Positions 34,301 to 64,000 of a stretch of 64,000 bases of DNA are shown one piece after another. A model generated the notes under the pieces. That model was given only the letters and a program-made list of their open reading frames with translations, was not told the origin of the DNA and did not search any database. The stretch is from Owenia fusiformis. Lineage: Eukaryota; Annelida; Polychaeta; Sabellida; Oweniidae. How positions within the stretch are numbered: position 1 is the first letter of the stretch; every line of letters starts with the position of its first letter. The stretch spans positions 38,257,375 through 38,321,374 of the forward strand of contig CAIIXF020000005.1 of assembly GCA_903813345.2 (NCBI GenBank). The letters are read 5' to 3'. Position numbers and translations under genes: made by a program.

Positions 34301-37300
34301 GCAGGTGAAATACTTGAATCGTGGGCGAAACGGCCAAATTGCTTAAAATGGTTGAAATGAAAAAGAACTTGGAAATAGCTCTGGTGAATTGTTTGAAATG
34401 CTTGAAACGCCGAAACAAGCAAAAGCAACAAAACTGCAATTTCATTTTAATTTAAAGATGTAGATTGAAATAATTGAAATGGTTGAAAAGCCTACTGGGC
34501 AAAATGCTTGAAACAAGAAAACAAGAAACGTTTCGTGTTCGTTTTTATTTTCAGTCGTTCGCCCGTTTCTTCTTAAATTGGTTGTGTGATTGAAACAATT
34601 GAAATGCTTGAAATGACGTTAGCATTGCAACGGAGGAACGGATGCATTGAAACGATTGAAACAAGTGAAACACAACTTACAGTTTATACATTGCTTTATG
34701 AAAATCACACTACATGGTATAAATTAACAATAAATCATGACAACTCTCATTAATCTAATTCCCATATGTTTATAGACACTGAGGATATGAAAGAATGTCG
34801 AGATATTTGGGCAACCAGCAAGGATGCCGCAGCTGCTCTAGCTAAAATCAGCTCCAAACATTGCATAGAGAAACACCTGTTGAATGGCCTGAAGACAAAG
34901 GGGAGCAACAAGGTCATGGCTCTGGCATGTGTAAGGGAAATTTTAATATATTCAACATTTTTGAATTAAAGTTGAATTTTAATCTGCTTTATAAACATTT
35001 TGTCAACGCTTGTTTTTAATATTGGATTTTGTAATTGTAACCTTAGTGGAAGAAAAGGTGTTGCATTGATCAAGTTTCTATCCCTTTTAAATTTAAACCT
35101 GTTGATGTATTATTTTCATAGCTTTTATGGTAATTGGGGCCATGGGGTATTAAATTACCAACATGTGCAAGAAGTTAGCAACATATCTGATATACCAATC
35201 TAAAAACTGATCTCCAAATATTTCTTGATGTTTCCTTAAGAAGGTCACCATGCTGGAGTATTTTGTCTATCTCACATCATCACTCTACTATTCCTAACCC
35301 CTAGAAATGCATAAGATACTCTGTTTGTCTAATTGTATTGTTTAGTATATTTTGAAAGTACCTTATTAACACCTAACAGTCATCCGATAAACCATTAATA
35401 AGGAACAAATAGAAACAAATAACATAATCATTACTAATAAGCCAAATGGGTTGCTCATGAACACCAAATGCAAGGTATAGTAGAGCATTTAAAAATAAAG
35501 GTTCAATAATGTATGAATACTAAGTTTCTAACTTTCTACTAACTATTTTTGATGTCAAGAGTATTGGTTATCAATTTTAAGGAATTTTTCAACATTTGTT
35601 CTAATCAAATGGTCATCAGTATGAATGAAATATCCCATGGTCTTGATGTCTTGGATCTTAATAATGGTTCCTGTATGATGGGGAGAAGGCATTGATACTT
35701 TAAAGTTTGATCATAGTTTCTGATATTTTGGGTTTGTTTCTCTTAGAAGTTTTTATGTCACCACCCTAAGTGAAAATATGCTGCAGTAGTCTCCAACTTT
35801 TTGTGGATGGTGGTAAGAGTTGGGGGTTCAGCATCTGTAACAAATGGCAGATGGTGACATTTTGCATATTTTTCATTTACCTTTGACATTTGTGCATATA
35901 CAAATGTATGTACATATTTCATTGAGATTCTGACTTTTATTACTGCTCCCTGATCACCCATCAACTTCAAACCCAAATGTATCTCATATCTGTAGGTGAC
36001 GATCTATTTTGAAATATTATTTCTTGAAACGAAAAGTTCACTCTGGAAAAAAACTAGTTTTGTTGTCTCCATGTATTTCACTACTTAGCCCTAAAGTCAG
36101 TAAGTAACATCAAACTAATCCTCCACTAGCTTATTCAATTGAAGTGCATCAGAGAATAGTGCATAATCTTGTTTGTACTGATCCTGTAGTTTGATTATTT
36201 TCTCAAGTGAAATATGAGAATAAAATTCTTTTAATTTGCTTGTTTCAACTGTTTTATTGTAACCATTAAGAATTGATTTTGTATTATTATTCCCAAGATT
36301 TGCATGCGGCAATGTCATGTTGGATTCGTTAATATCAAGGTTTTTAAAGACGAATTTACTCTCTTCTTCTACATTGTAGAAGTTGCCATACATATCATAG
36401 TCGATGAGACAGGGATGGCAAAGGTCAGTCATAGGCCTCCAGTGCTCATCGGCTCTCTGTATCACGTCAATATCCGTGATGTAACTCACCAGCTCATTAA
36501 ATGTGACATTGTCTCCAGTTTGTACAGCCTCGATTGATGGATTTGCCCGATAGCGTTGTATTATTTCAGTGCCATACCTGTGTGAGTAGTAAGGTTTTGT
36601 ATGGTTGAATTTATCGTCCCAAGCAGAGATAAGCCTATCTAAAGGATCTCTTATGAACATAAATTTAAAATATTCACCTAGAATTTTTTTCTGAATCTCT
36701 GTAGAATAATCAGTGAGGTGTGGTGGATGAACATTTTCTTTCCATATGGGCCATACATCCAGTTCTTCTATAGCAATGCCCATGTGCAGTGTAAGAAGTG
36801 CAGTAAGCCATGATGATGATGCAACCTTCGGTATCATACAATAAACCATTTTTAGTTTATTGCTGACTAGTATATATTCAGACCAAGGTAGACCCTCAAT
36901 TGTAGGATGTGGTGTAGTTATCTCACATGCTTGTTGCATTGATTGCCGTCGTTTATTCAACACCAACTCTATGTCATGTGATTGTACTGTGGAATGTTCA
37001 TGCTCCTTCCTTTGTGAACCTTTCATTTCATTATATTCACTATCTAAAAATGTGTTCGTTTTTGTTGAGGTATTTGTTTTAGTTTCTATGGTTTCATGTT
37101 TCATCTCAGTAGTATTAGTTTTCCGAAATTCATGTGACGTCCAAGTTGGTCTCATGTTTTGTGGTGATTCTTTTATTTCAAAGTTACTAAAACAATCCTT
37201 TAAAAGATACAAACCATTAATAGAAATACTTATACATAAGAAAACACTCAAGGCTTTTTTTGAGATCATTTTACTTGTGGCTGAATTACAATGTATTAGT

Positions 37301-40300
37301 ATTTATGTGAACAGTAAAACCTGTATATATACACTTCCCTTCTGACTTTTACAGTCCACTTTTGCAAAAAGTTTCTGATGTGAACACCTTAGATTTTGAA
37401 CATTTAATGTCATTTTTGAGAAATCAGCCAGTCTTATAGAGTTTTATGGGCAAGCGAGATGTATATTTGTTAATTATGTGCTCACATTTCTTCAAAATCC
37501 TGAATCATGTAAAGGATGAGTCTGGGAATGAGTCTGGGTATCGACTTAGAAAATATTGAAAATTTTAATGTCTGTAAAACCAACTCAATCACACATATTA
37601 TTAAACTTCAATATCTTATCCTTCTTCTGAGAGTACAAAAATATCAATTTGTATCACAATTAATGAAGAATATTGGCATCTTTGTCAGAATTGAAAAAAA
37701 ATCAATGGCAAATATTAAATGAATTATTTATACAAAAGGTTTGAAACATATCCCCCAAATCATTGCTTACTTTCTTTGTATAGACATTGAATGGTATTTC
37801 TGGATAAGTGAATTGGTATTTATCTGGGTAATCAAGGGATTATAGTCACTAAAAGTTACTGAGCGTCCAGATTTGAGACTTCAATTGTGTTGGTGAAGTT
37901 ACACATATTTCAGTCAAATTCATGCTGAGCACAACATTTTGGTTTCAATTTTATAATCTCTATACATGACCCTGGTGATGAAGAGTCAGAATCAGTCAAA
38001 AAACCTAAACCGGAAAACTGTGCTCATTGTGAAAACTAAAAGTGAAGCAACTTTTTTTCTGATATTTCTTACATCAAATGGCAGCCATCTTGTTTTTCCC
38101 CCTTCAAATTAAACTGGCGGGAAATTCAAAAATTAAAAAAAAAATTTAATCCTTAAATATATTTCAAAAATATGATTTTCTTTTAAATTCTTCATGGTTC
38201 TTAAGCTATTTCTTCTTTGTAAGTCATACATGTTGCCATTGGTGTTTTTTCCATGATAATGACTATTTATTTTTTGTTAATATACTTATTCTGACTCTCA
38301 GCAGGGGGTTAATTATGCATCAAAACTCGTGAAAAAGTAAATATACTTCTCAAATATAACTAGGACAGTAATAAAAAACATATTTCACATACATTTAACT
38401 GAGGGACCAAAAGGCCATATACCCGGACACATCCTTTCAGATTTCAGATTAAAGTTTAACTGTACAATAATTTATTGTGTACACATTAACCTTAATACTG
38501 GCAAAGTATTGTTTTAAACATGTTCACCTTTAAACAAATTACTAGTTTCTTTTCTTTGAATTGTATTGATATAGAACATCAATGAAATACAAGTTGTAAA
38601 TGCAATAGATGTAAGTGCATGCAATAGATGTTAAGTTACACATTTTAAGAGAACTTGAACATGAATGTGTAATATTGCTACCGTAATATTATAACCGTGT
38701 GGAAAACTGTCCCCTCTCAATTTTTTTGAGAGACTGAATTACAACTTTTTTCATTTTACCTTTATAATCAATACTGTAGAGCATTGAGATACTATGAAGG
38801 GGAGACTTTATCATACTATGTCATTGTGTCACTGTAGCCATAAATTCAGTGCAGTTCTAGTCCCCATAGGGCATTAGCCAATTTAAAAATTGCAAAAATA
38901 ACATGTGCAACTATGTTTTATACCTGTAGCACATCTTTAAAAGGCCCCATATAAAATTTAGATAATGTTGGCATATATTATGTTCCAGCCCAATACTACC
39001 AAAATGTTGTATGTGACACTTTTCAATTTAATTTGAAAAGGTTGATTTTGAAGGAATTTGGAATTTATTTCAAATGAAATATTAGTTGTAAAGCACATAA
39101 ATTGTTTTAAAGCACTAATTTACACCATAGCATAAAATGAATAATCTATTTTTTGTTGAAAAAATGAGAAAATCAGTTGAAAACTAAGCAAGAAATTTAA
39201 TCATAAGTGCAGGAAATTTTAAAATAGAATGGCCCACAAACTTAGAAATGCTTTGAAATGCATTTATGAATACCTAGAAGCATGTAACATTTCCAGTGAC
39301 ATTTTGGTTTGTAAGCAGGCATTTTCAATACAGGCCATTTCTGTGCTATGTTTTCAGCTATATCTGAAAAAGTAGTGGAAGTATTTTGTTGAAACTGTGA
39401 ATACTTAGAAGGGAATTACACTCTAAATTGTTTAACATATATATCATATAATCATTCAGATTGCCAGGAATACAAGGCTGATGTACATCCACAGTTATCA
39501 GAGCTATATTTGGAATACATTGGTGTCCAGGAGGATCAGAGAACATGGCCTTTTACCTCTAGTGGGTGACTTGGTGCTCAGACAGGACACAATTGCAGAC
39601 CAAGAGAACACTGGTAATTAAGGCTAATTTACATAATACAGTCATGATCTTATTCATCATTTGTCTGGCAGGCCCGTAGCCTGGAACCCATCGAACCCCC
39701 CCCCCCCGGCCAAAAATTCTTTCAAAATCATGCAGTTTTTCATCATTCTGAACACATTTTAAGTGATTTGGGCCATTTTTGTACCAAAAATATCAAAAGT
39801 GAACCCCCCTGGAAATTTTCAAAAAGTTAACCCCCCTTGGCAAATTCCTGGCTACGGGCCTGTCTGGTGCAAGACTTTGCTTCAATAGTACTGTCAAAGT
39901 ACTACTGAAACATAAGCTGCAATAGGGAATGACATGATTGTACAAAGACCTAAGCTAGATAGACTCTGCATTTAAGAGAAATGGATATACAATTATGAAA
40001 CTGAAAAGGTAATTGATAAATAAACTTGAAAGTACTTATCATGGCCTTTAATGAGAGTTTCTTTTAATAAGTGCCAAATACTTACGAAAGCATAACATTC
40101 AGTGGATGCTATTTTGATTGGGTAGCTTGATATTGATCAACTGTTTTCTCAGTATTCTAATTGTTGAAGCTTGCTTGATTTAAAAGATGGGATTTAACTC
40201 AAAGAGTATAGATGAAGTTCTGTTTAAAGATCAAACTATTGGAATGGATAATCTGTTACAATTTTTATGTATGGTTTTATGTCTGTTGATTTTATACATT

Positions 40301-45109: not shown

Positions 45110-46685
45110 GCTAGGCGTGTTCGGTGCTGATATACGTAGGCTATGCATTTTGATGAAAATAAACACGTCATAGTACGTATATATCTGTTGACGCCGTCAT
45201 TAGTTCGAGTTCATTTAACAATTTTTTAATCTATTTTGAATATTAAAACGATACATGGGAATGAGATGCAAGTGTTGAAAATAGTTGACAATTATCATAT
45301 TATGTTGACTACAGCAACTACGTTTGCAATACACAATCAGGAGATAATATGTCTGCATAATGGTCAACCCCTAACGTCTGTATGCATTTTGATGAAAATA
45401 ACCACGTCATAGTACGTACAGGGTGGTCCAAAAAATGGGACACTCGTATTTCAAAAATAAATATTGATATTATTGATGAAAATATATCATATTAATTATA
45501 TACTAGTGGACAGGGAATTTACTTATCTTTAATTTTGTATAACATTAGTTCAAATTTATTATAATGCCTGTCAACCAGCGTCCATAATACAAATGATGTC
45601 ATTTTCATTTCAAAACAGTTTTTCAAAAACCTGCAAAAAACATTTTTTTTGTCAACGTAAACAGAAGTTTAATATGGTCACCATTCTGATCAATTTAGCA
45701 CTCAATCTTGGCATACACTTGTTGATATTATCATTGATATGATTTTGAAATAAGAAATTCCACTTCTCAACAATTTAGTCTTGCTCAAGGACTGTATACA
45801 CCCCCCCCCCCATCACCTTCACTCTCTTTACCTGGCAATATACCTAGAGAGAAGGATAAAGGGGGGGGGGTACAGGGTATTTTAAGCAATACTACAACAA
45901 TTCTGTCTTTATGGGACTGAATAGATGCAAGGGGTTCATTGTTCACCAAGTCTGTTAATTCTCCTCATCCGTATTAGTCGCAGACATTGGCATCGGGTGA
46001 TTTGGGGGCCAGTGGTTAGGGGGATGAATCATTATGTCCTACACAGAGGACTTATTCCTGATCTCATATCATTACATTTTCCAACAAGATGGGGTTCCAA
46101 GTCAAAGATCTCACAAGACAGTAAAATATGTAAATGAGAATGTGCCTCAATTAGTACCCCCTAATCACTGGCCCTCCGGATCACCTGATGCCATGGCCAA
46201 TGTCTGCGACTACCATGTAGGCTATGGGGAGAACCAACAAACTTGGTGTATTATGAACTCCTTACATCTTTTCTGTCTCTAAATGACAGAATTGTTTAGA
46301 AGTGAAATTCCCTGTTTAAACAGCATTTCAATGATGCTACTGATCAGTTTAAGCCAATATTGGGGGCTATCATTGATCAAAATGGAGGATATATTGAACA
46401 TCTGTTTCTGTTGACAAAATAACTTGATTTTGCAAGTTTTAAAAACCCGTTTTGAAACGAAAATGAAGTCATTTGTATTATGGACGCTGGTTGACATGTA
46501 TGTAAATTCCCTATCCACTGGTATATAATATGACATGTTTCCGTCAATAAAATCAATGTTTATTTTTGAAATACGAGTGTCCCATTTTTTGGATCACCCT
46601 GTATATCTGTTGACTACGACAAATACGCCAGACACACCAAATCAGGATCTTGTCTACGTATATCAGCACCGAACACGTAGGCCTA
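45110..46685. repeat. Inverted/duplicated element interrupted by a mariner
   Basis: CGTGTTCGGTGCTGATATACG near 45117 is repeated inverted near 46652 (TATATCAGCACCGAACACG). TGCATTTTGATGAAAATAA...CACGTCATAGTACGTA occurs at 45144 and again at 45382. The second copy is split by the mariner at 45419, with its continuation TATATCTGTTGAC resuming at 46602. The interrupted repeat shows that the mariner is the younger insertion. Confidence 0.6.
45419..46601 (+). mobile_element. Decayed mariner transposon, 1.18 kb
   Basis: Inverted ends start CAGGGTGGTCCAAAAAATGG and extend about 45 bp. TA flanks both sides (45417-45418 and 46602-46603). The interior keeps transposase text on the plus strand, split between frames, including FQQDGVPSQRSHKTVKYVNE with the second catalytic Asp region, then PPNHWPSGSPDA. 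Frame changes and stops show it is inactive. Poly-C and poly-G runs (about 45799 and 45862) lie inside it. Confidence 0.85.
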
Positions 46686-46841: not shown

Positions 46842-49800
46842 ATGAATAAGAACAAGCGACAATTTTTTCCGAAGAACAGAATATTTCCAGATGACACTGA
46901 ATCAACTTCTGGAAGTATCCGATCTCGCAGACGACATTGCTGCGGATTGCCATATGACCCGATCACCAAGAAAGGAAAAAAGGTACAAGTCATTCGTATG
47001 TTGTTTCTGGCATCCCTACCTATCATTGTACTTGGCGTCCAAGCGTTTGTTGTTCTGCTCGATGGATTCAATGACAAAGCTAAAAAAGACGATATCCGTG
47101 ATAAAATCGTGTTATCAACAGAAACTGGAAAAATCGTCCATCTGTTACAAATTGAGCGAATGGCATCGGCTTTCTTCCTCAACTCTGTCAAAAATGCTTC
47201 TCAGTTTAAGGAGCTAACGGCAACTTACCTTGAAACTGATGCGGAACTGAAACATCACCTAAAAGGAAAAACAAGTTTAAATCCATCTTCAGTGGACCAT
47301 TTTGAATATGTTGAAGCTCAGCGGCTGTACATTCAAAGCTTTAGGGAGCGAGTGGCGATCGACCAGGAGGTTACCATTGCAGACGCCATACGATTTTATT
47401 CCGATATTAACGACGAATTGCTGAAATGGGTCGGAATAAGTGTGAACGAGGCAAAAGATGTTGGGAATTGGAAAACGCTGGTTGCCTACCATATGTTAGT
47501 GTTAAGCAAAGAACAAACTGGAATGGAGAGAACCTTGGGATCTTCTTATTTTGCAGCTGGTGAATATAATCTGTTATAGTTTTTATTTCTCTCACCATTC
47601 AGTCATGTTATAGAAGTAATAATCATTGTGTAATCTAAATTATAATTTAATCCGCAAGTGGAGTTATAGCATGTACATCAATTCATGTCTACCGCCTTAA
47701 TTTAATTAGGGGGATTTATGATATTGAAGCGGGGTTTTAAATATTATTTATAAAACTTCAATTATGATGTTATATCAAGCTCAATATTTTGAAAAAAAGC
47801 TGTTTTTTGAGAAATGCCCAATGCACTGGTTACAATTAAACTACTAATATTATTTGGACATGATGTAATATAAATGATATGTTAAATATGAAATATTTGC
47901 CCATCCTGCACTCTTTAATAACTATATCGACTATTAATTACTAATAAGTACTTTCTTCAGGCGGACTTGACAGGAAGGGCCATCTTTCATACGAGAGAAG
48001 GAAACAGATGGGCGCGACATATTTGAAGACATGCACAGAATATAATCCCGTCGTTGCCTCTCGAATTGAGCACAAATTCCCGAAAACTAAAGTTGCTATA
48101 GCATCCATGAGAGAGGACATAACATTAAACAATATTACTGGACCGTCTGCACAAAAGGGGAGATACTGGTTCCTGAACATGACCAAGTTGATCACGTTTA
48201 TGGGAACCATTCAAGATGATATGGCACACGAGATAGTGGTGACATTACGGAAAGAAGCGAAAGACTCTATCACTACAATAGTCGTCAACGTTCTCGTTTT
48301 GACTGGAGTTTGCATTCTTTGTCCGACTGTTCTGTTTTTTATTCAAAAAGTGACAGCTGACATCCAGAACACCGCCTCTGTTTTAAAAGAGCAAACAAAA
48401 GATCTAATCGCAGAGAAGAGAGTTACAGACTTTCTCATGTGTCAATGGCTACCAAGAACTGTCGCTGATCAATTGAAGAACCACCTGCCCATCAAGCCTG
48501 AAAGTTTCGACCATTGTACGATTTACTTTGGTACAGTTGTTGGTTTTAAACATATTGCTGCCCAAATTACACCTCGACAGGTGATAGCCTTGCTGAATAA
48601 CTTGCATCGGACGTTGGACGCAAGGATGGAACTGTATGATGTCTATAAGGTAGAAACGATGGGTAAGTGACATAATAGTATAATGTGCTGCAAATTTTAT
48701 TAAATGTATTGTATCAATTGCGAGCATTTGTACCATCCCATATCATGCAGGCATAACCTTTACACATTTTTGGTTGGATGGAATATCTTACTTAGAGTCG
48801 AATGGCTTTCAGAGCTGACCTCGGGGGCTGACCACAATCAAAATACTTATAATCAATATATTAATTCCTTTACGTACCGTAATCAAATCTATGTCTATTG
48901 AGCACTTCAACAGTTTGGAGTTTCAAAGTATTTCCACAGCTATTCTGAGACCTCATCTTATCGAATGTCATTATCATCTGAATCTGAATCCATGGACTTT
49001 ATTCATCGGCCCAGGAAATGGTATCGGAAAAGCTCTTGAGGAGGAGGCTGGTAAAATGATGCACAAATCTAATTGCAACTATATTTTATAACTTCAGAGG
49101 ATGCATCATGTATGGTAGCATCTGGAGTCCCAAGGCGTAATGGCGTCAACCATGTGACGGAGATAGCTACCATGGCACTGGATTTAGTTAGCGCTGTTGC
49201 TAAAAAAGATGTGCCACATATGGTGGACAGTCGTCTTGAACTTAGAAGTGGATTTCATTCAGGTAAGTTCTGATTTCTACGATAGGAATTCGTTGAAAGT
49301 ATATGTAGTAACTTATATGTACTATCATCATTCTCTGGAAATGCTTTTCGGAAACATTTCGTTCTTGTTTACTTTCTACCGTACTAGTACCTGTTCTAAA
49401 TTGATCCATTTTCACATTTGTAGTTTCATATTTTCCATTACTTTTGTTATGCAAGCTTTTATATTTGCTGTTTTCTAGCTTTTATCGCACTTTGAAAAAG
49501 TGCTACTGTATAGGGTGGGCCAAAAAATTGGAACTTTTTCCATCCATTGTAAGTTTTGGTTTGTCAAGTATTATCTTCAATATTTTAGTAAATTTCCTAA
49601 ATACAAACAAATATACAATGAAGAGACGGGTTGGGACAAATCGTCTTCCGGCATTTCATGTCCCCATAGAAAAAGTTACAATAGAGAGCATATGCAAGAT
49701 AGTTATAATTTAACGAAACGTTCGTTTTTAGAGTGCAGTAGTTGAAATTTGGACGAATATAAAATAAAGATCTGTTGAATACAAGAATTCTGTTCAAGGG

Positions 49801-52800
49801 AATGGAGTTGCTGCTGCTTATCATAGGAAATTGAAAAACAATCCATTGTCAACAGCTTGAGTAAATATGAATACACAAGCTCAACATTTAATTACGCAAT
49901 GGCTTCCCTGAACGTGTCCACCAAATGGTTTTGAGACATATTTTGCAAGTTAGGAAAAAACCTTAGGTGAAATTTTTACAGATGCAATGATTAAGTTCTG
50001 GGTATGCTGGCAAAATTACATGACTCCCAATTTTAATTCTTTGATAAATTAGCCATTTTGAGTTGTTTCATCAATCGTAGCATCAAAATTCCGTTTAACT
50101 TAAAATATTTACAGATGCAAACCATTTCACTGTCATGTAACCATTTCGCTCTTCAAAGTGCGATATTTATCACTGTCATGTCAACCATTTCGCTCTTCAA
50201 AGTGCGATATTTATCACTGTCATGTAACCATTTCGCTCTTCAAAGTGCGATATCACTGTCATGTCAACCATTTCGCTCTTCAAAGTGCGATATTTATCAC
50301 TGTCATGTCAACCATTTAGCTCTTCAAAGTGCGATATTAATCACTGTCATGTCAACCATTTCGCTCTTCAAAGTGCGATATTTATCACTGTCATGTAACC
50401 ATTTCGCTCTTCAAAGTTCGATATTTATCACTGTCATGTAAATATTTTGCTCTTCAAAGTGCGATATTTATCACTGTCATGTAAATATTTCGCTCTTCAA
50501 AGTGCGATATTTATCACTGTCATGTAACCATTTCGCTCTTCAAAGTGCGATATTTATCACTGTCATGTAACCATTTCGCTCTTCAAAGTGCGATATTTAT
50601 CACTGTCATGTAACCATTTTGCTCTTCAAAGTGCGATATTTATCACTGTCATGTAACCATTTCGCTCTTCAAATTGCGATATTTATCACTGTCATGTAAC
50701 CATTTCGCTCTTCAAAGTGCGATATTTATCACTGTCATGTAACCATTTCGCTCTTCAAAGTGCGATATTTATCACTGTCATGTCAACCATTTCGCTCTTC
50801 AAAGTGCGATATTTATCACTGTCATTTCAACCATTTCACTCTTCAAAGTGCGATATTTATCACTGTCATGTAACCATTTCGCTCTTCAAAGTGCGATATT
50901 TATCACTGTCATGTAACCATTTCGCTCTTCAAAGTGCGATATTTATCACTGTCATGTAACCATTTCGCCTTTCAAAGTACGATATTTATCACTGTCATGT
51001 CAACCATTTCGCTCTTCAAAGTGCTATATTTATCACTGTCAAGTAACCATTTCGCTCTTTAAAGTGCTATATTTATCACTGTCATGTAACCATTTCGCTC
51101 TTCAAAGTGCGATATTTATCACTGTCATGTAACCATTTCGCCTTTCAAAGTGCGATATTTATCACTGTCATGTCAACCATTTCGCTCTTCAAAGTGCGAT
51201 ATTTATCACTGTCATGTCAACCATTTCGCTCTTCAAAGTGCGATATTTATCACTGTCATGTCAACCATTAAATTTTGTTTTTCAAATTGGGATATTTATC
51301 ACTCATATCAACCATTAAATTTCGCTCTTCAAAGTGCGATACTTACCACTGTGTCTTGTTTATTTTCAAGTCATATTCACAATTCTGATAAATGTCTTTT
51401 CAGGCGTATGTGTTGCTGGATTGGTTGGCTTCAAGATGCCGCGCTACTGTTTGTTTGGGGATACCGTCAGAACTGCGTCCATCATGGAGTCCACTGGAAT
51501 GGGTAAAGTAATTTTTGCGTTACATTATGGAAGATAAGCTACACGTTCTTGAAAGAATTATGTGTAGAATTATAGACCTCTACAGTTCTTCCCCCGTCGT
51601 CCGATTGAATACTAGTATCTAGCTTAGTTTTTTTAATTTAGTTTAGTTTAATATAGTATAAACGTATAAGGAAAATACTTTTAAATATTATACTACTCAA
51701 AAAGGACAACATGTCTAATAAGTTCTCATCATGAAATTGTGCATCAGATGCTTTGAAACATGTTTCATTGTTGTCTTCCAATAAATCGTGGTCCTTAACT
51801 TTTTGGTTGTAGTCCTACATGTCCCTGGAAAACCAACTAAAGGGCAGCAGTAAATGCCTGAGGGATAACACGTTCACAAACAAGTTTATTTACGAGGGTT
51901 GTCCCATAAGTCTTGAAATTTTTATTCTAATTCAAAAAGATTTTAATGAATTTGGCTGAAAATTGGTATGTATCAAGATCAATCGATTATCTTCAACATG
52001 TGATAGTTTCATAACAAAATTAAGGATTTGAGTAACTATTATGGTTGCTATGGTAACCGGGGGAGTCGGGGGGTGGGTCAGTCATGAAATAGAGTAAAAA
52101 TGTAAAATGAAACCATGGAAGTATTAGGTATTTTAAAGGATGGTATGCATCTTAAATTGTGAACCACCTGTCTAGATTGACAAAAACACCATATTCTTTG
52201 TAAAATCTTGAGAAATACCTCTGCGATATCATAATAAAGTAGCACAATTGCTCAATTTTGGTACAGAGACACAGCATTTTGAAAATCAAATTGGCAGGGA
52301 TTTTGTCACCAGATGTTAAATCATTGCATGCAGTTGTGCAATACCAAGCCTGCTTAGGGCATACACCTTCACAAACAAGAACTGTCATGGGAAAGGTATA
52401 TAGACAGTATACTCCCAGTGCACCTACAATATGGAGCCTGAAGGATGCACCTAGAAAGCCCTAGAAGTGGAAGGCCAAAATCGATTGACGATCTCATACC
52501 ACATATTGCAGAGAGTATAAGGGCTGGAAGGAGAACTTCTTGTAGGAAGATCGCCCTAGACTTTGATATTAGTAAGAGTACTGCTCACAGAGTGATAGAG
52601 AAAGACATTGGGATGTCAAAGGTAGCCCCTAGATTCGTCCACATATTCTGATAGAGGAGCAGAAAAAAATAAAATATAACATGGGATGTGCTCCCAAATC
52701 CTTGATTTTTATGTCATATTTTGTATAGTATATCCTGTTTTCTGCCCCGGGTACCTCCAACTTTCCGTTTTAAATCATCTGTAACATTGCCAAATTATGC

Positions 52801-55001
52801 TATGCTTATTATGCTATGAAACTTTCAGAGATAATAGAAATATATCCAAGCTACAAAATGTGAAATTTTTATTATTGTATCTCAAATATTCTATGAATTA
52901 GAATAAAAATTTCAAGACTTATGGGACAACCCTCGTAATATACTTTAATACCAAATATGATGAAACGCATGTCACACGATCGTTTACTTATTCATGGAAA
53001 ATTGCAAATGAAATATTCTTCCAAATGTTGCATATCATCATTGCATTCTACATGTACTTCATTCTATTCTTCAGCTTCTGAGATTCAGATTAGTGAAGCA
53101 GCGTTCATTCTCTTGAGGTCCAACAACATGTATGTAATGAAAAAGAGGGAAGAAACGAATTCCAAGGTATGTCTATATTCGTATATGTCAATGGCTATGC
53201 CTTCACAATTTCCTCATATGAGGCAAATAAGTTTTTAACAATAAAAACAATTTTACCACTCCCCTACATTTTTGTCGCCCAATTTGATGTGTTAAAGATG
53301 CATGTCAAAGAAGAACAACTACGCCCGATACGTTCAAGTTAACCTCCGGGCAAGACGCCAAGCATGTTTAATAAAAAGGCCATAAAATCGTGACCATTAG
53401 AAATAGACCAAATAAACTTGGTAGAATGAAGAAACATTGAAGAAGGTTTAACTGTGCGAAATATGACACTAAACTTATACTGAATGACTGAGTTGTTATT
53501 TGTTTGGGTTACCTTTTTTATGGATCATCCTGTGCAATGTTATATTGTTACCCCCGAGAGGCCACGTGTTAAATCCAAACCAACTGTTGATGATGTCCTT
53601 AGAGAAATGAAACTAATTCTAAACATGGTTTCGAGATTTTATATGAGATGGAAAGGATTCTTGAAACGAGCGTAAAATCCCGTAATGCGTAGAAGGGCTG
53701 GAAATCCAAGACACGTCGAAGAAGGTGACAAAAATGTGTGTGGGATATTATAGAATATAATACTCTCTCAAAGTAGTCTCTAAAAGCAGCAGTCTTAAAA
53801 GCAATATTATCAATAATGAGGATATCATACTTGACAAGGAAACTTATTCCTTCATCAACTCTGTGGTGACGTTTTGTGGCCATACCAAGTAAACTCATTA
53901 CGCACAATTGAAAAGGGGGTAACTGGAATCGTTTAAAAAGGACCCAAGGATTTCACGAGGAATTAGTATACAGTGTCGACCCCCCCCCCCCCCCCCCACC
54001 ATTCACCAATCTCTCCATATGTATGGAAGCTTGTTCCATTCTGAAATTATTGCAGCAACTTTGATTAGCTCAGCAGCTATACAGCTTGCTACATATCACT
54101 GCAAAGGGTGACTTTTTGATGGAATGGATGGCATGCAATCGAGCAGACGAATTTTATAAAAATTAACTGTGAACCCTGTAACGTGTCAAAAACATAAAAG
54201 CAATGATAACCAAGGGTCAGACCACTATTATATTAAGTAATGACCAACTTTAGAATTCGATAGATGCTAATTAAGGATGTATCTTAATATTTGAAAGAAA
54301 AATTGAAGAACTACCCAAAGAATTATAAATGCTACAATAGATCATACAATTATCTGCTCTTCTTTTTATATATTCATTACAAAAGGCGGCCATAAATCTA
54401 GCAAATTAGGGTAATGGTGACTTAGCAAACAAGTGTGGACAAATTATGTTCCCGATGATCAATCATACCAGTAGTTGGCAAACAAGTCCAAAAAGCTTTA
54501 TGATAATATTATATAGATTGTGATGCCGTAATCTTAGCTGTGAAGGTGGGGACCGTGATTATGAAACACCCTGTATAAATACATCTTATGTTACGACATA
54601 GCGTGTAGAAGCACACATAAGAGAATAGTATCATCCTGAATGTCCTCTATATGTTCATCTATAAGATTTTTTTTCAAATCGATGTCCCCTCTCAAAATGA
54701 CTACTGTCGACTTTTGAAATCTGTTTACTTTTACTTTAACTTGAATACTGCTTTGGTTCATATTTGCAATTATAATGCATCAAGGATTCACAAAAACACG
54801 GTATCGGTGAATTTGGGGGAAATTTTGCAAAATCTACTTAATCTTTGCCGCTAAAATTTTGCCTTTCACTAATTTTATTGTTTTCAGGGATCGCAGCAAA
54901 CAACATGGTGGCTGATTTCGAAAGAGGGATTTGTCAGTGAAGAACAAATTGTTACTTCGTTTAGTAGCTTCCCCGACTTGCTTCAACAGGTGAAAGATTG
55001 A
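46842..55001 (+). CDS. NIT-domain receptor guanylate cyclase, likely catalytically degenerate (629 aa, 6 exons)
   Basis: Exons 46842-47559, 47961-48662, 49098-49262, 51404-51502, 53075-53166 and 54888-55001 join in frame via GT-AG introns (1890 nt). A membrane helix at about 49-72 is followed by an extracellular NIT (nitrate/nitrite-sensing) domain (about 75-340, with [12 protein letters not shown]). A second helix (about 344-368), a coiled dimerisation segment ([10 protein letters not shown]) and a class III cyclase domain (about 420-592) follow. The family makes cGMP; some NIT cyclases are linked to nitric oxide signalling. The catalytic site is unusual. The first metal-binding Asp of the FSDIVGF motif is Thr431 (FGTVVGF). 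The VETIGDAY motif is altered to VETMEDASC. The NTASRMES motif is RTASIMES, losing Asn and Arg. Base-recognition Glu471 and Cys544 remain. The start is the ATG preceding NKNKRQFF. Confidence 0.9.
49508..50050 (+). mobile_element. Probable mariner relic in a cyclase intron
   Basis: AGGGTGGGCCAAAAAATTGGAAC at 49513 has the look of a mariner/Tc1 terminal repeat. I could not find a matching right end, and no transposase motif is clear. Confidence 0.35.
50115..51345 (+). repeat. 43/44-bp minisatellite, about 28 copies
   Basis: The unit is ACCATTTCGCTCTTCAAAGT followed by GCGATATTTATCACTGTCAT and GTA (or GTCA). Copies are about 95% alike, with the last two or three more degenerate. The array lies in the third intron of the NIT cyclase, between exons 49098-49262 and 51404-51502. 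Open frames across it are artefacts of the repeat. Confidence 0.95.
51893..52935 (+). mobile_element. Decayed mariner transposon, 1.04 kb, with intact TIRs
   Basis: The inverted ends (CGAGGGTTGTCCCATAAGTC...) match over about 42 bp. TA flanks them (51891-51892 and 52936-52937). A partial transposase remains at 52260-52650 in two frames: an N-terminal part, then [20 protein letters not shown] and a helix-turn-helix ([20 protein letters not shown]). The catalytic DDD/DDE half is missing, so it is internally deleted. It lies in a NIT cyclase intron. Confidence 0.88.
53280..54590. other. Intron sequence with possible transposon remnants
   Basis: A run of 20 or more C at about 53981 and GAAACACCCTGTATAAAT near 54561 (a mariner-like end without a found partner) are the only marks. 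Short open frames are not recognisable. Confidence 0.3.
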
Positions 55002-55611
55002 TCGGGTAATAGAGTTTGGTGGTCAATTGCCATTTTTGAAGGGCAGATGTATTTTTGTAATGATGAATGACAGTACTCCCAAGAGCCACCAGAATTTTGT
55101 ATAGTTAGTTATATAGAAATTGAGCAAGGATTTGTGAACTCTAATTGTTGTTCACTTTGAAGAGAGTTCACAAAACACTGATCGCTGTCTCAACAAGAGA
55201 TAATACAATACGTATGGATGACAATAATGAACTAATTTATTGCATTGAAAAAGCCAAAATTCAAGGGACACACAAGAGCCATCTAGAAAAATAACCAGAT
55301 ACATGACTGTATGGTATGGCACTGATGAGATCAGATATAGATAAATAATTGTACAGTTGATCTAGATTCAGTCACAATGGACTGGAGCTAAATGCATGAT
55401 ATGTTAAATAAAAATTGGATGGAGAGAGGGGAGCAAGCAATTTCTGCTAGAATTTCCGATCACCGAGTCAGTGTGCTTTAAATAATTTGAAGTTCATCGT
55501 GTAATATTAGAGAGCTTTTGATATAGGTTTTCAGCAGTTCTTTGCAACTAGCTCCAACTTTTACTGGGGAGGAAGGTTTCCCAAAGATTACTTATATCGA
55601 AAGCTTTCTAC
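55002..55611. other. 3' flank of the NIT cyclase gene, nothing recognised
   Basis: Contains the cyclase 3' untranslated region. AATAAA is seen near 55346 and 55408 as possible poly(A) signals. No other structure. Confidence 0.4.
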
Positions 55612-59129: not shown

Positions 59130-60300
59130 ATTGGCCCGGGTATATTGGTAAGAATGGATCGTGTCAGTAGAGTGGTAATACTAATAAAGGAATCGCCTTG
59201 CTGGTGTGGTATAAAGTGGTCGTGCTGGAAGAGTGGTAATGTGGTAAAAAAGATCGCGTTGGTTAGTGATAGTCGGGGATTGTGTTGGCCGAATGGTAAT
59301 GTGGTAAAATGGATCGCGTTGGTTGAGTAATAAGGGATTGTGTTGGCCGAATGGTCATGTGATAAAGGATCAAGTTGGTAGAGTGATAATAAGAGATTGT
59401 GTTGGCCGAGTGGTAATGTGGTAAAAAGCATCAAGTTGGTTGAGTGATAATAAGGGGTTGTGTTGGCTGAATGGTAATGTGGTAAAAAGGATCAAGTTGG
59501 AAGAGTAATAATAAGGGATTGTGTTGGCCGAGTGGTAATGTGGTAAAAAGGATCAAGTTGGTAAAGTGATAATCGGGGATTGTGTTGGCCGAGTGGAAAT
59601 GAGTTAAAGGAGCAAGTTGGTAGAGTGATAATCGGAGATTGTGTTGGCCGAGTGGTAATGTGGTAAAAAGGATCAAGTTGGTAGAGTGATAATCGAGGAT
59701 TGTCTTGGCCGAGTGGTAATGTGGTAAAAAGGATCAAGTTGATAGAGTGGTAATGTGGTAAAAAGCATCAAGTTGGTTGAGTGATAATAAGGGATTGTGT
59801 TGGCTGAATGGTAATGTGGTAAAAAGGATCAAGTTGGTAGAGTGATAATAAGAGATAAAAAGGATCAAGTTGGTAGAGTGATAATAAGGGATTGTGTTGG
59901 CCGAGTGGTAATGTGGTAAAAAGGATCAAGTTGGTAGAGTGATAATCGAGGATTGTCTTGGCCGAGTGGTAATGTGGTAAAAAGGATCAAGTTGATAGAG
60001 TGGTAATAAGGGATTGTGTTGGCCGAATGGTAATGTGGTAAAAAGGATCAAGTTGATAGAGTGATAATAAGGGATTGTGTTGGCCGAATGGTAATGTGGT
60101 AAAAAGGATCAAGTTGGTAGAGTGATAATCGGGGATTGTGTTGGCCGAGTGGAAATGTGTTTAAGGAGCAAGTTGGTAAAGTGGTAATAAGGGATTGTGG
60201 TGGCCACCGAGTGGCAATGTGGTAAAAAGGATAAAGTTGGTAGAATGGTAATAATGAGTCGTGTGGGTGGAGTGGTAATAAGGAATCGCATTGGTAGAGT
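59130..60300 (+). repeat. 61-bp minisatellite, about 19 units
   Basis: The unit is GATAATAAGGGATTGTGTTG, GCCGAATGGTAATGTGGTAA, AAAGGATCAAGTTGGTAGAG, T, with partial units and small deletions. Most units contain TGGCCGAGTGG or TGGCCGAATGG, the same as a tRNA A box, but no B box follows at a proper distance. Confidence 0.9.
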
Positions 60301-62867: not shown

Positions 62868-63735
62868 CTATGGTAGTTTTGGTGGTGGCATTAATTGTTT
62901 GTCAGCTTTCTCAGCAGGTTGCCATCTATGATGATCTATCATATCAAACAGTTTGTCTTTATTTACTGGCTGCTGTATACTTTTTATCACTCCGACAGCT
63001 GTGTTGTAGCCATTAGGGAATGACTTATCAGTCCTCTCTCGCATAAATTTCCATGTGTTCATTTTGGCATCCCATGAGCACTCAATGATCTTGCCATCAT
63101 ATTGTTTTAAAGATTTTGTGATTTTCATCGTTGAGAATGGTTCTTTCATTCCTCCAACGAATAAATATCCTATTGTCTCTGGTAAACAGCCAGGTTTCTT
63201 TTCTTGTGTAACCTGAAGTTTGAAATCTACAGAATTCAAACTTGGTGGTTTCCACTTGAGCACCTCCTTGCAACGACCACATACATAAGGATCTGCAGCT
63301 GGTTGAAAGATGAGGCCATCCACCTCATGACTGACATCCTTACTGAACTGACCATCTAGTAGTTTTCGAACTTGTGTCAGATCCCAGAATGGTTTCATTC
63401 TTATACTGAATGGCTCCCTGGTTTTGTCTAATTGCCCAGCTTGGATCATGGCATGCCGGGGTGTGATGATTTCTTTGTTAATGCATAACATTCTACGATC
63501 AAAATCAGTTTGTCCGACATCAATACCTTCAAACTTTACAATATCGTAAATGAGGAATCTTGGTATTTTCTTGCCTTCCACTTCATCTAAGATCATTTCT
63601 CCATCTACGAGGGTATTACTCAAACACTGTTTGGGATTCTTCCGTTTCGGGAAGATCAGGTGCGGGATGTGGAATACAGCATTGTCTCTGTCGAACATAT
63701 AAACTGCATCCACCCCATCTATCAACATCAGATAT
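62868..63735 (-). CDS. RNGTT: mRNA capping enzyme, C-terminal guanylyltransferase exon (partial)
   Basis: This 868-nt last exon encodes 288 residues after an acceptor (TTTTGTAG) at 63736-63743; the upstream exons lie beyond the right edge. The enzyme caps nascent mRNA: an N-terminal triphosphatase and a C-terminal GTP:RNA guanylyltransferase. The exon starts at the Tyr of the active-site KxDGxRY motif, so the catalytic Lys is off the window. Visible nucleotidyltransferase motifs in order are [15 protein letters not shown] (III), [13 protein letters not shown] (IIIa), [10 protein letters not shown] (IV), [13 protein letters not shown] (V) and [15 protein letters not shown] (VI, OB fold). The C-terminus ends MPPPKLP, like the proline-rich ending of animal homologues. 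No defects were seen. Confidence 0.95.
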
Positions 63736-64000
63736 CTACAAAACATTTTGCAGATATATTTTATTAAGTACTATTATATATATGTACATGTAATTAGTTT
63801 GAATTTACAAAATATCTACATGTAGTTCATTATTAATTTGTCAATTTATCAATGTATTTAATATGTATACATAAAGTAAATCTGTACAATATACATTATG
63901 TAGTTAGTCTGTACAATATTCACATGTACAGCAGTTAGTCTGAACAATAAACATGCTATTTATCTGTCAATACACCTGTAGTAGTCTTAATTTTTCTCAA
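63736..64000. other. RNGTT intron, AT-rich, right edge of window
   Basis: Begins with the intron acceptor of the last RNGTT exon (minus strand). Short ACATGTA and CAATATAC motifs recur, but there is no exon before the end of the window. Confidence 0.5.

Follow-up and report, generated by a model that had tools for sequence, protein, structure and literature searches.

An apparently intact NIT-receptor gene for a predicted pseudo-guanylate cyclase, possibly a non-productive partner of active NIT cyclases

A six-exon gene on the + strand of the analysed window (the whole stretch of 64 kb, eukaryotic DNA with a GC content of ~35%) encodes a NIT-domain receptor guanylate cyclase with an intact reading frame and replaced catalytic residues. 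The reading that we favour, at a probability of roughly 0.45, is that the product is a pseudo-guanylate cyclase which pairs non-productively with active NIT cyclases and thereby lowers or gates their output, with a decoy receptor as a close alternative. Judged from its sequence, the protein probably senses or restrains rather than producing cyclic GMP.

Results

The six exons (Table 1) agree in phase and join to 1890 nt encoding 629 aa followed by a stop codon. All five introns are of the GT-AG type with all ten splice dinucleotides intact, and a search within the six exons for marks of a pseudogene, namely stops, frameshifts or broken splice sites, found none. The open frames of exons 1 and 2 are not due to chance, since neither was stop-free in any of 5000 base shuffles (0/5000 for each). 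The six-exon model with open frame and good splice sites that had been proposed in the initial annotation was therefore retained. Using NPR1, GC-C and sGC-alpha1 as tblastn queries against the 64 kb window, exons 2, 3 and 4 were matched, and neither a second cyclase nor an alternative exon was detected in this window, where all matches outside the gene had E >= 0.67.

Table 1. Exons of the NIT-cyclase gene and a downstream sequence motif (positions in the window)
Feature	Position	Strand	Content
Exon 1	46842..47559	+	Cytosolic N-terminal tail, membrane helix 1 (~50-73) and the first half of the NIT domain, which includes R106 and R230
Exon 2	47961..48662	+	Remainder of NIT, membrane helix 2 (~343-367), linker, start of cyclase domain; T431 (metal Asp-1 lost), E471
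Exon 3	49098..49262	+	E474 (codon spans junction), D475 (metal Asp-2 kept), inserted residue at 477/478, R523
Exon 4	51404..51502	+	C544 kept; R551 and I555 replace ribose-orienting Asn and transition-state Arg
Exon 5	53075..53166	+	Late cyclase domain; last codon is K592
Exon 6	54888..55001	+	End of cyclase domain (GSQQTTWWL, corresponding to the TYWL strand), C-terminal tail, TGA stop
Possible polyadenylation signal	55407..55412	+	First AATAAA 3' of the stop codon; motif only

Intron 3 contains a tandem array at 50127-51269, in which a 43-bp unit is repeated ~26 times (95% matches) and which ends 134 bases before exon 4. In intron 4, a ~1.05 kb element with perfect 45-nt inverted ends occupies positions 51890-52938; we take it to be probably a degenerate mariner-type transposon, and an ORF inside it (52442-52651) gave only sub-threshold Pfam matches to helix-turn-helix domains. 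Just upstream of the gene lies a short ORF (46028-46282) without Pfam match at E 0.01, whose wording (FQQDG...WPSGSPD) presumably corresponds to the end of a Tc1/mariner transposase. Elsewhere, the window carries a second large tandem array (59231-60279; 61-bp unit, ~17 copies), a single-frame ORF of 395 aa on the - strand that matches Sulfotransfer_2 (36115-37302; Pfam, 159 bits), a single-frame stretch of 300 aa, also on the - strand, that matches mRNA capping enzyme (guanylyltransferase) domains (62868-63770), and an exon-like stretch matching ribosomal protein L26 (16118-16534; 72 bits).

The predicted protein is built, in this order, of a membrane helix, a NIT domain, a second membrane helix, a linker and a class III cyclase domain. 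Pfam assigned residues 98-331 to NIT (PF08376; 98.3 bits vs a cut-off of 24.9, E 1.1e-27) and residues 418-602 to Guanylate_cyc (PF00211; 154.3 bits vs a cut-off of 21.9, E 3.4e-45), and HNOBA gave a weak match below its cut-off over the linker (371-411). Hydropathy peaks in windows starting at residues 46-57 and 339-352 place one membrane helix on each side of the NIT domain. With both Pfam domains and the flanking membrane helices found, the NIT receptor guanylate cyclase architecture assigned initially is affirmed. No kinase homology domain between NIT and cyclase was among the four Pfam families listed, and the C-terminal tail beyond the cyclase domain is short (~27 residues). The same domain layout is described for animal NIT cyclases of Placozoa and other phyla in the portion of PMC7400543 consulted; by its predicted architecture, the gene is probably one of the animal NIT-domain cyclases.

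To place the catalytic positions, the cyclase domain was aligned (MAFFT) with three sequences of solved structure, NPR1, GC-C and sGC-alpha1. NPR1 and GC-C were the nearest among the 39 sequences listed in a phmmer comparison with solved structures, from which five alignments were inspected, three of them with NPR1 variants. Identity over the cyclase domain amounted to 46% with NPR1, 44% with GC-C and 38% with sGC-alpha1. Among the columns identical in NPR1 and GC-C, 80/116 are kept and 36/116 are lost; where sGC-alpha1 shares the residue as well, 56 of 73 columns are kept.

A competent cyclase requires two metal Asp residues and the Asn and Arg of the motif NTASRMES (NxxxR). Compared to all three sequences, metal Asp-1 is replaced by Thr431, and Asn and Arg are replaced by Arg551 and Ile555; the protein thus has neither the Asp pair nor the NxxxR motif. 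The guanine-selecting residues Glu471 and Cys544 are kept, and so are Arg523 and Lys592, the latter of which, going by the motif, is presumably the equivalent of the triphosphate Lys. T431, E471, E474, D475, C544, R551 and I555 all stand where the initial annotation had placed them. For the second metal motif, which it had described as altered by one extra residue, with a possible Asp at 475, the emphasis needs correcting. The extra residue is present, at 477 or 478 since phmmer and MAFFT placed the gap differently, and the change of GDAY to EDASC additionally includes the replacement of Gly474 by Glu. However, Asp475 stands in register with metal Asp-2, so that this motif keeps its Asp.

Furthermore, the initial annotation had pointed to other splice sites as a way in which the canonical residues could be restored. 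For the exon 2/3 junction (48662/49098), GT or GC donors between 48600 and 48719 were tried in combination with AG acceptors as far as 49129; six in-frame pairs keep exon 4 and none of them yields GDAY. Thr431, Arg551 and Ile555 cannot be altered by this junction because they are located inside exons 2 and 4. We consider it likely that the predicted protein is catalytically incompetent.

Class III cyclases assemble their sites from two chains. In Cyg12, according to the excerpt consulted, the metal Asp pair and one Arg come from one monomer, and Asn, Arg and Lys from the other. The rhodopsin cyclase paper (PMC12264004), in the sections drawn on, gives base-selecting roles to Glu and Cys. In a complementing heterodimer of the NeoR or sGC type, one half or more of the composite site must be complete in the chain concerned; here, the positions of Asp-1 and of Asn/Arg fall on opposite halves and both are affected. 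With a canonical partner, one site would combine the Asp pair of the partner with Arg551/Ile555 and would be incomplete; the other would combine Thr431 with the Asn and Arg of the partner and would be incomplete as well. Because the chain is without a required residue on both faces, class III cyclase chemistry implies that no complete site would form, whether it pairs with itself or with a canonical partner. The heterodimer with an active NIT cyclase that the initial annotation had suggested is thereby redefined: pairing with an ordinary cyclase would give a dead or allosterically altered dimer in which no site is completed, unlike NeoR/RGC or ODR-1/DAF-11.

The sensor domain appears to be preserved. 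When the NIT domain was compared to three bacterial NIT proteins, NasR (4akk; a weak match, E 0.49), an Ensifer protein and an Aliarcobacter protein (E 7e-21), Arg106 and Arg230 aligned to Arg in all three, and Met107, the residue following the first of them, takes the place of a Gly shared by all three. According to a figure legend in PMC7400543, ligand binding is presumably due to two conserved arginines located where the two helix bundles meet. Arg106 and Arg230 are presumably these two ligand-binding arginines, and the NIT domain may still bind its ligand.

To arrive at the five altered motif codons, canonical codons must have undergone no fewer than 9 substitutions, and there is an in-frame 3-nt insertion besides. 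In a neutral simulation of the coding sequence, which assumed a canonical ancestor (4000 replicates per distance), 0.05 substitutions/site left a mean of 4.4 stops and 33/4000 stop-free replicates (0.8%). At 0.1 substitutions/site the mean rose to 8.4 stops, and none of the 4000 replicates was stop-free, likewise at larger distances. The likelihood of the motif codons kept increasing as the distance grew, through to the highest value tried (2); the distance that these codons imply is exaggerated because they were chosen for having changed. Since neutral decay that deep leaves many stops and the gene has none, the reading frame was apparently preserved during the change of the motif. This suggests that the gene is probably maintained and not a pseudogene.

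An enrichment of loss at the catalytic residues was rejected: 3/8 catalytic positions are lost, compared to 33/108 of the other positions invariant in NPR1 and GC-C (Fisher p 0.70). As catalytic losses are no commoner than others, constraint on the cyclase domain may have relaxed overall, so that the domain is drifting instead of being remodelled. The GC3 of the gene is 0.435 vs an intron GC of 0.342; however, GC3 is no reliable sign here and carries little weight because it is only 0.311 in the sulfotransferase ORF of the window. Pattern searches for relatives in collections of viral and prokaryote contigs gave 4, 15, 5 and 23 matches, none of which was confirmed by tblastn; little is to be expected from such non-animal collections.

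Discussion

If the protein is catalytically incompetent and the gene is maintained, a role as inhibitory partner or decoy is rather likely. A non-productive partner or a ligand decoy is favoured because neither site would be complete with a canonical partner. The linker and the cyclase fold would still dimerise, and, supposing that the gene is expressed and that a partner is present, the non-productive chain would lower or gate what the active NIT cyclases of that cell produce. Alternatively, the protein would act as a ligand-binding decoy receptor. A narrower version, in which a NIT pseudo-cyclase dead on both faces binds nitrate or a nitric-oxide product and, as a poison subunit, silences active NIT cyclases by drawing them into site-less dimers, is tentative and on balance doubtful.

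The main rival to these roles is a young pseudogene, whose function is lost and whose stops have yet to accumulate. Conserved positions have been lost throughout the cyclase domain (36/116) and the introns are repeat-laden, both of which are consistent with decay. A stop-free frame, though, is still plausible only at distances below ~0.03-0.05 per site, which the number of substitutions in the motif codons (at least 9) and the in-frame 3-nt insertion do not fit, and all ten splice dinucleotides have survived; a young pseudogene is therefore unlikely. Quite unlikely, too, is an allosteric, stabilising or localising partner that lacks a complete site and leaves the output unchanged or raises it. 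Such effects have a model in NeoR/RGC, whose degenerate sites are allosteric and where activity increased up to ninefold once a metal Asp in the non-catalytic site was broken, according to the sections of PMC12264004 consulted. However, the NeoR/RGC dimer retains one complete site, and here there would be none with a canonical partner, so that raised output would need a higher-order assembly.

Retention of sensor and fold along with loss of the chemistry would also suit a stand-alone receptor that signals via cytosolic binding proteins instead of cGMP, but the tail after the cyclase domain offers only ~27 residues, and we regard this reading as improbable. Finally, the enzyme might have been rewired and be active, with Arg551, which lies a single turn of the helix away from the lost Arg at 555, and Glu474, beside Asp475, as substitutes. 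Each lost function would then have a plausible replacement nearby, and the guanine-selecting and triphosphate residues are kept. Against this, Thr431 provides no carboxylate at the Asp-1 position, the metal loop is changed by the extra residue, and no precedent was found in the literature searched, as far as the consulted portions reach; an active rewired cyclase is thus highly improbable.

The gene shares its layout, with NIT between two membrane helices and a C-terminal cyclase, with the animal NIT cyclases, including Platynereis NIT-GC1 and NIT-GC2 (PMC10584369; PMC7400543, the latter in part), which also carry two NIT arginines at equivalent motifs. These proteins are described as cyclases, and the portions of text consulted mention no catalytic loss, whereas metal Asp-1 and Asn/Arg are lost here. 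Known inactive partners of class III cyclases resemble the predicted protein in other respects. According to the sections of PMC12264004 drawn on, NeoR is likewise a receptor-linked cyclase domain without NxxxR that is inactive alone, the inactivity of NeoR-cat is tied to the missing NxxxR, and the opposite protomer supplies the metal Asps. In contrast to the chain described here, NeoR retains the metal Asp pair, so that one site becomes complete in its dimer with RGC1. ODR-1 and DAF-11 of C. elegans form an obligate heterodimer of receptor cyclase chains that are also unable to act alone; as set out in the excerpt of PMC5225109 consulted, each monomer supplies essential residues to one shared site, whereas the present chain is deficient for both roles. 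In our alignment, sGC-alpha1 likewise has no Asn and Arg (Thr and Lys stand there), but it keeps both metal Asp, is soluble and is not a NIT receptor.

Class III cyclases with inactive partners are thus known, and in the cases covered by the literature consulted one complete site is left in the dimer; a deficiency on both faces would be new, as far as the searched portions of the literature show. A catalytically dead NIT cyclase is not described in that literature, which excluded the primary Platynereis NIT-GC paper, and an earlier description is possible. If the gene is maintained, its product would serve nitrate/nitric oxide signalling as a dedicated brake or decoy, following a logic like that of pseudokinase regulators, and would help to explain why some animals have many NIT cyclase genes.
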